From NCBI RefSeq assembly GCF_002073975.1, contig NZ_CP020384.1, positions 3,224,001 through 3,288,000 of the forward strand: DNA of 64,000 nucleotides, in the 5' to 3' direction. The notes under the pieces were generated by a model, which saw only the letters and a program-made list of their open reading frames with translations, had not been told where the DNA came from and did no database searches. Shown here piece by piece: positions 13,865-17,798 of this stretch; the stretch's first letter is position 1, and the number at the start of each line of letters is the position of its first letter. A program made the translations under genes and the position numbers. This stretch comes from Rhodovulum sp. MB263. GTDB taxonomy: Bacteria > Pseudomonadota > Alphaproteobacteria > Rhodobacterales > Rhodobacteraceae.

Positions 13865-13889
13865 AACGCCCCGGCCGCGTTCAGGTTCC
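13865..13889 (-). promoter_or_regulatory. EcfG-type promoter of the entericidin gene
   Basis: On the minus strand GGAAC (13885-13889), a 16-base spacer and CGTT (13865-13868) match the EcfG consensus GGAAC-N16/17-CGTT exactly. It points at the entericidin gene 30 bases downstream. The -35 element lies in the last codons/stop region of the histidine-kinase gene. Confidence 0.8.
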
Positions 13890-15707
13890 CTCGGAAACGC
13901 CGCCGGATGCGGCTTCTTCCTCCGCCTCGGCGTCGTCCTCCTCGGGCGAGGCCCCCATCGGGGCAAAGGTCACATGAAGCTCGTAGCGATCGGGTTCGGA
14001 ATGCACCTCGAATTCGGCATCGAGCTGAGCCGCGAAGGAGGAGATGAGCTGCCGGCCCATGCCCGAACTGTCCGCGACGCTGCCATTCACCGGGCCCGGA
14101 TCGGGCTCCTCGCTGCGGGAATTGACCACGCTGAGGCAGATCCGCCCGTCCTCGAGCGTCTGCAGCGCCATGGTGATCCATGCCGGCTCGCCGTCGGGCG
14201 GCGTCCCGCAATACTTGACGGCATTGATCGCGGCCTCGGTCGCAAGAAGCGACAGCGGGACCGACTGATCGGGATTGACCTCGACGGGGCTGAACTGGGT
14301 GGCGATCTTGACGCTCTTCTCGGCGCCACCGATATCGCTGACCACGACCAGCTGGCGGATGATGTCGTCGAGCAGCCTGTCGGCGCGAACCATCGACAGC
14401 TTGCGGGCCATGTAGAGATAGCGGTGGATCGCGGCAAGCGCCATCACCCGGTCCTGCACCCGCTTCAGAAGGCGCCGCGCCTCGGCGCTGCGGGCATTGC
14501 GGATCTGCATGTTCATCAGCGAGGTGATGAGCTGGAGGTTGTTCTTGACCCGGTGATGAACCTCTTTCAGCAGGATCGTCTTCTCGGCCAGATCCTCCTC
14601 GAGCGCGCGGTCCTGTTCGGCCAGGCGCCGGGTCATGCTGCGGAAGGCCTCGGCGACGACTTCGAGCTCATGCGGGGCGTGATCGAGCCGGGCCTGGCCG
14701 AAATCGGTATGTCCGCTGGCATAGAGCCGCATCCAGCTCTGCAGCCGCTGGATGTGACGGATCACCAGCCGGTGCACGGCGAAATAGGCAACGACGATAC
14801 CCGCCACCCACATCAGGATCGGAAAATAGAGCGCCAATGCCCGACCTGTCATCGGCATCGAGTTGTTGCGGTCGGGCGCCCAGCTTCCCATCACGAAAAT
14901 GCGGTCGTCGATGACCGGAACCACGGCGAAATCGCGGGTCTCGCCAAGCCGGTTGGTGCCGCGGAAGGACTGCCGTCCCGCCTCGGCGAGCGCCTCGAGG
15001 CTATGCTGGCGCGGCAGCACCTCTTCGAAATTGTCGGGCGGCGCGCCCTCGTCCCGCGTGGCCGCCTCGGCGGTGAGGAATTCGCCATCGCGGTCGAACA
15101 CCAGAAGATCGACCTCGGCCCCGCCGTCATCGAGCGTGTAATAGGCCGCGGCATAGGGCATCGAGATCACCACGAAGCCCTGCAGGACCGTCTCCTCGTA
15201 GACCGGCACGCTCACCCGCACGACCCGGGCGCCCTGCAGCGGGACGCTGAACCGGGTATCGACCCGGGGCTCCGGATCGCGCAGCAGATTGAGGAAATAG
15301 GCCTGATCGACGATGCTGAGACGTTCGCCGCTCGACGAGCAGGTGATGCTGCCATCGGGCTCGACGAAACCGGCGAACAGATAGGTAGGGTTGTCCTTGA
15401 CCAGCCGCGCCATCACCGCGTCGCAGGAAATGCCGCCGCCCTCGAACACCACATTGGCCGCGGCAACCGAGCGGGCCGCGCCGAAGGCCTCCTGGATCAG
15501 CGCCTGGGTCCGCACCGCGGCGCGCTGGGTCCGGTCCATGAGCGCCACGCCCGAAAGCCGTTCTGTCTCGTGCAGGACCTTCGAGGTCTGCGACACCGAG
15601 ATCAGCCCCAGCGGCAGCATGGCGACGGTCAGGGCACCGATCAGCCAGAGCGCCAGGCTCTTGGTCAGACGGCGCGTCGAAATGCGCGCCTTGAGAGTAT
15701 CGGTCAT
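13881..15707 (-). CDS. HisKA_2/HWE-type sensor histidine kinase of the general stress response
   Basis: Membrane sensor kinase of 608 residues. A first membrane helix near residues 18-40, a periplasmic region of about 260 residues (Cache-like by layout), a second helix near 290-312, a HAMP-like linker, and a HisKA_2 dimerisation segment with EVHHRVKNNLQ near residue 380; then an HATPase_c domain (TEAAINAVKY, GMGRQLI). This class of kinase phosphorylates PhyR in alphaproteobacteria. Its ATG overlaps the ecfG stop by 4 bases, so nepR, ecfG and this gene form one operon. It is therefore the likely input (or phosphatase) for the PhyR gene across the divergent promoter. The signal sensed is unknown. 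Confidence 0.88.
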   Translation of the reverse strand: MTDTLKARISTRRLTKSLALWLIGALTVAMLPLGLISVSQTSKVLHETERLSGVALMDRTQRAAVRTQALIQEAFGAARSVAAANVVFEGGGISCDAVMARLVKDNPTYLFAGFVEPDGSITCSSSGERLSIVDQAYFLNLLRDPEPRVDTRFSVPLQGARVVRVSVPVYEETVLQGFVVISMPYAAAYYTLDDGGAEVDLLVFDRDGEFLTAEAATRDEGAPPDNFEEVLPRQHSLEALAEAGRQSFRGTNRLGETRDFAVVPVIDDRIFVMGSWAPDRNNSMPMTGRALALYFPILMWVAGIVVAYFAVHRLVIRHIQRLQSWMRLYASGHTDFGQARLDHAPHELEVVAEAFRSMTRRLAEQDRALEEDLAEKTILLKEVHHRVKNNLQLITSLMNMQIRNARSAEARRLLKRVQDRVMALAAIHRYLYMARKLSMVRADRLLDDIIRQLVVVSDIGGAEKSVKIATQFSPVEVNPDQSVPLSLLATEAAINAVKYCGTPPDGEPAWITMALQTLEDGRICLSVVNSRSEEPDPGPVNGSVADSSGMGRQLISSFAAQLDAEFEVHSEPDRYELHVTFAPMGASPEEDDAEAEEEAASGGVSEGT

Positions 15708-16258
15708 GCAGGTCGCTTGGAGGAAAGACCGGCCAGCGTCACCGCATCGGTCATCGCCAGATCATCGTCATCGTTCAGATGCATCAGCTCGGCCAGCCGC
15801 ACCCGGGCCCTGTTGACCCGGCTCTTGATGGTGCCCACGGCACAGCCACAGGTCGCGGCGGCCTCCTCGTAGGAGAAGCCTTCGGCGCCGACCAGGATCA
15901 GCGCCTCGCGCTGCTCGTCGGGCAGCTTGACGAAGGCGACCTTGAAGTCCTCCAGCGCAAGCCGGCCGTCGTGATGCGGTTTTTCCGACAGATGCGCGGC
16001 AAGCGCGCCATCCGGGTCTTCGACCTCGCGACGCCGCTTGCGATGCATCGAATAATAGGTGTTGCGCAGGATCGTGAACAGCCAGGCCCTCAGGTTCGTA
16101 CCGGGCTCGAACTTGTCGAAATTGCTCCAGGCCTTGACGATCGCATCCTGCACCAGGTCATCGGCCGTCGCCGAATTGCGCGTCAGGCTGAGAGCAAAGG
16201 CCCGCATCGCCGGAAGATGCGTCACCAAGTCTTCCCGGGGGTCCGAAGCCACGCTCAC
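15704..16258 (-). CDS. ecfG: EcfG general stress response sigma factor
   Basis: ECF sigma factor of the EcfG group, 184 residues. Region 2 includes SATADDLVQDAIVKAW and LFTILRN; region 4 includes LPDEQREALILVGAEGFSY with the helix-turn-helix GCAVGTIKSRVNRAR. The start is GTG at 16258, which shares GTGA with the nepR stop codon; such overlap supports translational coupling between anti-sigma factor and sigma factor. EcfG is normally held by NepR and freed when phospho-PhyR binds NepR. The exact EcfG consensus is found at four places around this gene, including its own promoter, which implies autoregulation. Confidence 0.92.
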   Translation of the reverse strand: MSVASDPREDLVTHLPAMRAFALSLTRNSATADDLVQDAIVKAWSNFDKFEPGTNLRAWLFTILRNTYYSMHRKRRREVEDPDGALAAHLSEKPHHDGRLALEDFKVAFVKLPDEQREALILVGAEGFSYEEAAATCGCAVGTIKSRVNRARVRLAELMHLNDDDDLAMTDAVTLAGLSSKRPA

Positions 16259-16407
16259 GTATCGCCACCCTTGCCATTGCTGCCATTGGACGCCTCGCTG
16301 CCAGTGCCCCGCAGCTGCTCGAGCAGCTTGAGGAAGCGGTCCGGGACCTGTTCCTCCACGGCTTGCGCGTAGACGCGCCGCAAATTGTCGTCGATTTGCT
16401 CTTCCAT
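16255..16407 (-). CDS. nepR: NepR anti-sigma factor
   Basis: Small NepR-type anti-sigma factor, 50 residues from the ATG at 16407, which has AGGGG 6 bases upstream; an in-frame ATG at 16434 would add nine residues but lacks a good ribosome binding site. The conserved core is visible: IDDNLRRVYAQAVEEQVPDR, then FLKLLEQLR, followed by a Ser/Asn/Gly-rich tail. This two-helix core is the part known to clamp EcfG or the sigma-like domain of PhyR. It lies first in the nepR-ecfG-kinase operon and is divergent from phyR, the standard order for this locus. Confidence 0.9.
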   Translation of the reverse strand: MEEQIDDNLRRVYAQAVEEQVPDRFLKLLEQLRGTGSEASNGSNGKGGDT

Positions 16408-16465
16408 GCGACCCCTACGGTCCTTGTGTTCCATTCCGGTCGGCCCGCCCTAACTTTCAGACTGC

Positions 16466-16497
16466 GGAACCAAACGCGGGTGATTGCGTTCGGTTCC
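16466..16497. promoter_or_regulatory. Bidirectional EcfG-type promoter between nepR and phyR
   Basis: Plus strand: GGAAC (16466-16470), 16-base spacer, CGTT (16487-16490), pointing to phyR. Minus strand: GGAAC (16493-16497), 16-base spacer, CGTT (16473-16476), pointing to nepR-ecfG. Both match the EcfG consensus exactly and they overlap almost fully, so one near-palindromic 32-bp block carries both promoters. Confidence 0.85.
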
Positions 16498-16526
16498 CAT
16501 GAGACATTGTTTTTTCGAGGTCGCGC

Positions 16527-17345
16527 ATGACGCATGCACCACATTCTGACGATCTTTCCCGGGTGATCGGGTCGGAACTGCCCTATCTCAGACGCTACGC
16601 GCGGGCGCTGACCGGCAGCCAGACCAGCGGCGACGCCTATGCGATCGCAACACTCGAGGCGATCCTTTCAGATCGGGAGGTCTTCGAACAGGGGCTGCCG
16701 CCAAAGGTCGCGCTGTTCAAGGCGTTCAACCGCATCTGGGGGTCCTCGGGCGCGCCCCTGAGCGAGTCGCAGCCCGCTTCGGGCATCGAGGCGCAGGCGC
16801 AGTCCCGGCTTGCAGGCCTGACCCGCAACACCCGCGAGGCCCTGCTCCTGCATTCGATCGAGGCGTTCACGACCGAGGAGGTCGGCGCGATCATGGGCCT
16901 GCCGGGCAGCGAGGCCGAACAGCTGATCCGGATCGCCCGCGACGAAATGGCCCGCAGCATTTCCGGGCGGGTGCTGATCATCGAGGACGAGGCGATCATC
17001 GCCATCGACATCTCGGCCATCGTCCAGGGTCTGGGCCATGAAGTGACCGGGATCGGCCGCACCCGGCGCGGTGCCGTCGATCTGGCGAAGAAGACCCCGC
17101 CGGATCTGATCCTTGCCGACATCCAGCTGGCCGACAAATCCTCCGGGATCGACGCGGTCAACGACATTCTGGCCGAACTCGGCGACCGGCCGGTGGTCTT
17201 CATCACCGCCTTCCCCGAACGCCTGCTGACCGGCGAACGGCCGGAACCCGCCTTCCTGATCTCGAAACCCTATACAGAGGACCAGGTGCGCTCGGCGGTG
17301 AGCCAGGCGATGTTCTTCTCGAGTACCGAGACGCTCGGCGCCTGA
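16527..17345 (+). CDS. phyR: PhyR response regulator / anti-anti-sigma factor
   Basis: PhyR, 272 residues. The N-terminal half (about 1-140) is sigma-factor-like (YLRRYARALTG, LLHSIEAFTTEEVGAIMGLPG) and mimics EcfG. The C-terminal half is a receiver domain: acidic pocket IIEDEA, phospho-acceptor Asp198 in LILADIQL, Thr in VFITAF and Lys in LISKPY. When phosphorylated the sigma-like half binds NepR and releases EcfG. It is divergent from nepR-ecfG and shares the bidirectional EcfG promoter; a strong terminator follows. Length and domain order are normal for the family. Confidence 0.93.
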   Translation: MTHAPHSDDLSRVIGSELPYLRRYARALTGSQTSGDAYAIATLEAILSDREVFEQGLPPKVALFKAFNRIWGSSGAPLSESQPASGIEAQAQSRLAGLTRNTREALLLHSIEAFTTEEVGAIMGLPGSEAEQLIRIARDEMARSISGRVLIIEDEAIIAIDISAIVQGLGHEVTGIGRTRRGAVDLAKKTPPDLILADIQLADKSSGIDAVNDILAELGDRPVVFITAFPERLLTGERPEPAFLISKPYTEDQVRSAVSQAMFFSSTETLGA

Positions 17346-17679: not shown

Positions 17680-17704
17680 AACGTCGAACGGGCAGAGTGG
17701 TTCC
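17680..17704 (-). promoter_or_regulatory. EcfG-type promoter of the DUF1328 gene
   Basis: Minus strand GGAAC (17700-17704), 16-base spacer, CGTT (17680-17683): exact match to the EcfG consensus, pointing to the DUF1328 start 36 bases on. Confidence 0.78.
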
Positions 17705-17772: not shown

Positions 17773-17798
17773 GGAACCCCGCCCCGCAGCCGGACGTT
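17773..17798 (+). promoter_or_regulatory. EcfG-type promoter of the DUF883 operon
   Basis: Plus strand GGAAC (17773-17777), 17-base spacer, CGTT (17795-17798): exact match to the EcfG consensus, 47 bases before the DUF883 start. Confidence 0.78.

Follow-up and report, generated by a model that had tools for sequence, protein, structure and literature searches.

Interlocked, opposed EcfG-type promoter motifs between phyR and nepR-ecfG-kinase in Rhodovulum sp. MB263 and across its order

A near-palindromic block of 32 bp in Rhodovulum sp. MB263, located between phyR on the plus strand and nepR-ecfG-kinase on the minus strand, carried an EcfG-type promoter sequence on each strand, the two being opposed and interlocked. 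The same interlocked arrangement was found in 100 of the 117 sampled loci of the order Rhodobacterales in which phyR is divergent from nepR or ecfG. We consider it likely that the block represents two functional EcfG (ECF15-type) promoters that cross each other and are mutually exclusive, with phyR read rightward and nepR-ecfG-kinase leftward. The features below were identified in the window, the whole stretch of 64,000 nucleotides that was analysed.

16466..16497, no strand: near-palindrome GGAACCAAACGC-N8-GCGTTCGGTTCC with two opposed EcfG-type promoter sequences inside (from the sequence)
16466..16490, plus strand: putative phyR-ward promoter, -35 GGAAC at 16466-16470, N16, -10 CGTT at 16487-16490 (motif match)
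16473..16497, minus strand: putative nepR-ecfG-kinase-ward promoter, -35 GGAAC at 16497-16493, N16, -10 CGTT at 16476-16473 (motif match)
16527..17345, plus strand: phyR, PhyR-family anti-anti-sigma response regulator (PF22029, 1.7e-25; NF006623, 346 bits, cut-off 240)
16255..16434, minus strand: nepR, anti-sigma factor (PF18557, 3.2e-15, 55.9 bits, cut-off 25.7)
15704..16258, minus strand: ecfG, ECF sigma factor, overlapping the end of nepR (NF009198, 314.9 bits, cut-off 270)
13881..15707, minus strand: PhyK-like HisKA_2/HWE sensor histidine kinase, overlapping the end of ecfG (profile match)
13865..13889, minus strand: additional EcfG-type motif upstream of an entericidin-like gene (motif match)
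17680..17704, minus strand: additional EcfG-type motif upstream of a DUF1328 gene (motif match)
17773..17798, plus strand: EcfG-type motif with an N17 spacer upstream of a DUF883-like gene (motif match)

The earlier note had claimed that both strands of the block read GGAAC-N16-CGTT and that each -35 lies beside the other promoter's -10. Exact matches were present on the plus strand as GGAACCAAACGCGGGTGATTGCGTT (16466-16490) and on the minus strand as GGAACCGAACGCAATCACCCGCGTT (16473-16497), and two bases separated each -35, the outer element, from the opposite -10, so both observations were confirmed. Each motif agreed with the EcfG consensus as given in the literature excerpts consulted (-35 GGAAC, spacer 16-17, -10 C/GGTT). 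Counting onward from the -10 elements, the start site on the phyR side is predicted at about 16497-16500 and that on the nepR side at about 16463-16466, which would place the two roughly 31-37 bp apart.

The surrounding genes were those of a general stress response (GSR) locus. PhyR had both the sigma-like and the receiver domain by profile match, the divergent NepR was recognised by PF18557, and an ECF-type sigma factor lay directly downstream of nepR. Its position beside nepR and phyR suggests a sigma factor of class ECF15 (EcfG). The NCBIfam equivalog model for NepR scored 20 bits for the nepR of the window, under its cut-off of 100. The kinase is named PhyK-like here because it reached only 197 bits (E 4.2e-58) with the PhyK equivalog NF051872, which has a cut-off of 750. 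A possible alternative start for nepR, preceded by GTAGGGG, is the ATG at 16408 rather than that at 16434; its use would give a 50-aa NepR with a longer leader. Since three more motifs adjoin the GSR locus, it forms a small island of EcfG sites. The DUF1328 and DUF883 genes were likewise a divergent pair, with one EcfG-type motif each.

The interlocked pair is not due to chance. Exact single motifs numbered five in the 64,000-nt window (0.34 expected), and genome-wide GGAAC-N16-CGTT was hardly enriched, with 39 matches compared with 33 for the reversed control. The single motif was rejected as evidence for this reason, and it is the opposed pair that counts. An exact-pattern scan of the genome for the palindrome, with its 18 specified bases, recovered the block and no second occurrence. 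A look-alike at 1957467 (GGAACCGAACGC...GCGTT, locus L330) was discarded; it had no closing GTTCC and the open frames inspected around it were not those of a GSR locus. Among 390 genomes of the order the exact palindrome was found in 42, representing 29 of 139 genera, and the reversed pattern in none. A scan of public genomes, permitting a centre of 10 or 11 bases, returned at least 117 stretches. Among the 80 loci listed, 75 adjoined phyR and one more adjoined nepR-ecfG at a contig end. The remaining four (L048, L064, L079 and L098; three from Methylobacterium and one from Marinobacter) had no GSR genes in the sequence retrieved around them, and they were left in the denominator and counted as misses.

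We also took a motif-independent sample, by searching 158 genomes of the order for the sigma-like domain of PhyR. At the threshold used, 110 genomes were positive, yielding 144 PhyR-domain rows, of which 118 loci were used and 26 were left out. One of the latter (L015, genome G021) stands outside the counts though it carries an exact interlocked pair. Most of the other 25 were frames 171-237 aa long, which we took for EcfG paralogues, and three of the 25 had frames of at least 266 aa. Divergent nepR or ecfG stood beside phyR in all but one of the 118 loci. A pair was recorded where the -35 contained AAC, each strand had at least 8 of 9 matches and the spacer was 16 or 17. Under this rule, 51 of the 100 interlocked pairs matched at 9/9 on both strands and the rest had one or two mismatches. 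Their outer span was 31-33 bp (87 loci) or 27-28 bp (13 loci), and no other value occurred. A count of 19 for the shorter class, from the first tie-breaking, was an over-call that was corrected to 13 by preferring full -35 matches. Interlocked loci came from 47 of the 52 genera represented by the 118 loci. Dinucleotide shuffles of the 118 phyR regions (100 rounds) produced a mean of 0.72 interlocked pairs and a maximum of 4 in 118, and the reversed sequences of the same regions produced none; these controls followed nearly, not exactly, the rule behind the count of 100. A set of 30 loci, scored with the exact rule only, had the exact opposed pair in 14, the 16 others including loci from other orders, EcfG paralogues and same-family loci such as L006, L016, L017 and L020. 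The statement of the earlier note that the two EcfG-type promoter sequences are opposed is upheld by the motifs on both strands. Conservation of the palindrome, which the note had proposed to check in related Rhodobacterales, is supported within the order by the exact form in the 42 genomes and by the interlock in the sampled loci.

The 17 loci without the pair comprised 13 with the nepR-side motif only (L159, L162, L175, L177, L216, L218, L228, L253, L278, L287, L292, L296 and L297), one with the phyR-side motif only and three with neither. In these 13, phyR may be out of EcfG control. Motif loss was therefore nearly always on the phyR side, as expected if only the nepR-ecfG motif is a working promoter and its phyR-side partner a relic or weak. 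The published work on Rhodobacter sphaeroides is consistent with that idea, as the section consulted gives a start site upstream of nepR-ecfG, supported by dRNA-seq, and reports none for phyR (PMC5830050); the dRNA-seq support for a nepR-ecfG promoter also agrees with the reading of two working promoters. However, the phyR-side motif was retained (at least 8/9) in 102 of the 118 loci, compared with a shuffle mean of 4.49, and the spacers of both strands remained at 16-17 through at least 16 in-step changes. A single working promoter is therefore improbable in our judgement.

These in-step changes were seen in the 87 loci of the 31-33-bp class. Spacers on the phyR and nepR sides were 16/16 in 41 loci, 17/17 in 26, 16/17 in 13 and 17/16 in seven, and were thus equal on both strands in 67 of the 87. 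On the EcfG tree, the 67 equal-spacer loci required at least 16 interchanges between 16/16 and 17/17. When one base of the centre is gained or lost, both spacers change together and both stay within the 16-17 reported for EcfG; the rule admitted only spacers of 16 and 17, and a third value would appear merely as a lost pair. Column information was high in the arms but amounted to 0.01-0.2 bits at the majority of inner positions. The motif columns had themselves entered into the selection of pairs, unlike the conserved C that follows GGAAC and the positions beside the -10s. In GGAAC-N17-GTTCC, the form of 27 bp, each -10 has its GTT inside the reverse complement of the other promoter's -35.

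As the block is an inverted repeat, it could be considered to be the binding site of a dimeric regulator and not a promoter pair. We rejected this reading, which has hardly any likelihood left. The arms match the -35 and -10 of EcfG with correct spacers on both strands, and the centre, instead of being rigid as in a dimer site, differs by one base between loci. Moreover, other orders keep the same pair of motifs at the same gene pair but in back-to-back order, which is how promoters behave, rather than a single fixed site for a dimer.

For other alphaproteobacterial orders, 59 loci were tested, drawn from part of the matches found; 51 had PhyR and 44 had divergent nepR or ecfG. The motifs were back to back in 37 of these 44, interlocked in one (L201, 27 bp) and without a pair in six. 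A single family (f5) supplied 30 of the 44 loci, with 26 in the back-to-back form; among the 14 loci from elsewhere, 11 were back to back, representing seven families, and eight of the 11 were tight. Altogether 32 of the 37 were tight, with motif starts 30 to 36 apart and the facing -35s 5-10 bp apart. The commonest distance, in 14 loci, was 33 between motif starts with 8 bp between the facing -35s. Back-to-back phyR-side promoters frequently had a T-run right after GGAAC (for example L189, L203 and L298-L300), which was absent from the interlocked form.

Eight of the 37 back-to-back loci, all from f5, carried a palindrome of 27-28 bp, GGAAC-N17/18-GTTCC, at the phyR promoter, in addition to a separate promoter on the nepR side (L192, L307, L310, L314, L319, L321, L322 and L326). 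Three EcfG-like readings thus fell within one intergenic region in those eight. The sequence GTTCC contains the GTT of the -10, so two extra bases after the -10 can make an EcfG promoter bidirectional. This offers a route for a switch of layout, and the palindromic phyR promoter of f5 is a possible intermediate between the two layouts.

Exchange between interlocked and back-to-back layouts required two changes on the EcfG tree (161 rows) and three on the PhyR tree, these counts being approximate since both gene trees were built quickly under LG+G4. On the EcfG tree, the branches closest to the order from outside (L186; L189, L298 and L299) were back to back. In the simplest history the layout probably switched once near the base of the order, with L201 standing apart. 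The small number of changes would also be expected if a chance event at the base of the order had produced the interlock a single time and it had persisted because moving either promoter breaks both. However, geometry inside the order was not frozen. For the 87 loci the tree called for at least nine changes of promoter offset and at least 29 of spacer pair, the 27-bp form exists as well, and despite such changes none of the 117 loci was back to back. We regard persistence by descent alone as possible but on the doubtful side.

Another explanation is that the interlock was selected or kept for the short intergenic room, promoter competition being a tolerated by-product without regulatory use. 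Interlocking reduces the outer span from 58 bp to 32 bp and so spares about 26 bp. Median intergenic room was 89.5 (62 loci) in the 31-33-bp class and 88.5 (12 loci) in the 27-28-bp class, compared with 159 in 15 back-to-back loci; these values, available for part of the loci, are crude lower bounds measured between the upstream-most ATGs, and some are negative since the frames run on upstream. However, eight of the 62 loci had room of at least 110 bp (160 and 183 in two of them) with the geometry unchanged. Cause and effect are also inseparable here, as a shorter promoter block itself allows a shorter gap. Compaction is accordingly a serious candidate, if somewhat short of probable.

Returning to the two crossing promoters, it is plausible from the geometry that only one EcfG-RNA polymerase could occupy the block at a time, because each promoter, once open, would have its bubble over the other's -35, making simultaneous binding of two polymerases impossible. 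EcfG freed from NepR would bring RNA polymerase to the block, and each initiation would then serve either the activator arm (PhyR) or the inhibitor and sigma arm (NepR-EcfG-kinase), both arms being feedback outputs of EcfG. The occupancies of exclusive promoters would be Kf·x/(1+Kf·x+Kr·x) and Kr·x/(1+Kf·x+Kr·x). Dividing one by the other eliminates x, which is not the case for independent promoters; competition should therefore hold the ratio constant and place a ceiling on the sum. Under strict exclusion, the relative strength of the two promoters would dictate the ratio of initiation rates whatever the amount of EcfG, and together the two rates could not exceed that of one site; this would be relevant only at high occupancy. 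The tight back-to-back layout, with its -35s 5-10 bp apart, is probably exclusive as well through the size of the enzyme. The switch would thus alter the way in which exclusion is achieved, and may not be the source of exclusion itself.

Selection might then have favoured the interlock as a device. Following a single ancestral change from the back-to-back layout to crossed promoters, one EcfG-polymerase site would split initiations between PhyR and NepR-EcfG-kinase, fixing their ratio and capping the feedback gain. We put this forward tentatively and think it rather unlikely.

Expression data from R. sphaeroides, the only ones found for a species with this block, bear on such a ratio and on the coupling of PhyR and NepR output that the earlier note had proposed. 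Genome G154, whose locus L226 has the exact palindrome, is probably that of R. sphaeroides 2.4.1, as its NepR is 68 aa from an internal ATG and fits the 68-aa protein given for RSP_1273 in the relevant part of PMC5830050. According to the same source, phyR mRNA increased 2-3 fold in response to singlet oxygen, superoxide and diamide; for ecfG mRNA a rise was seen with membrane stress only, and it depended on PhyR. As the two mRNAs follow different stresses, the arms are not simply locked together in R. sphaeroides, which speaks against a plain ratio lock; the unlike responses may be due to additional promoters or to mRNA decay. In Caulobacter, by contrast, a correlation of sigT with phyR transcripts through the cell cycle is reported (r = 0.92; PMC5869019, in the part consulted).

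The block resembles the autoregulated divergent phyR/nepR-ecfG loci of Alphaproteobacteria in genes, orientation and EcfG-type promoters; nepR-ecfG and phyR are described there as divergent and both under EcfG-type promoters (PMC4814048, PMC8103513). Promoter overlap is not described in the parts of those accounts consulted, and the other orders sampled here were mostly back to back. The R. sphaeroides GSR locus (RSP_1271-1274) has the same gene order, and the corresponding locus, if L226 is correctly identified, has the exact interlocked palindrome; the parts of PMC5830050 consulted do not mention a palindrome. In the excerpts of open-access literature covered, we found no account of overlapping or interlocked EcfG promoters. 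The closest parallel outside the GSR is with the bidirectional sigma70 promoters of the Grainger laboratory, in which near-symmetric DNA is likewise read both ways by one holoenzyme. As described in the part of PMC10268837 consulted, those promoters share a -10, with start sites usually 18 bp apart (7-25 by definition). The block instead had separate -10s at 16473-16476 and 16487-16490. The -35 and -10 elements of its two promoters interlock, the sigma factor is of ECF type and the predicted starts are farther apart.

What appears to be new, judging from the open-access literature covered, is a conserved, clade-specific promoter geometry at an already known feedback locus. It suggests a bidirectional promoter geometry for an ECF sigma factor unlike the shared -10 type of sigma70. 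The two arms, phyR and nepR-ecfG, exert feedback of opposite sign on one and the same sigma factor. Should there be physical exclusion between their promoters, DNA geometry rather than separate regulation would determine the ratio of activator to inhibitor. The back-to-back layout of most other orders sampled and the interlocked layout of this order would provide a natural comparison for promoter exclusion in a feedback circuit.
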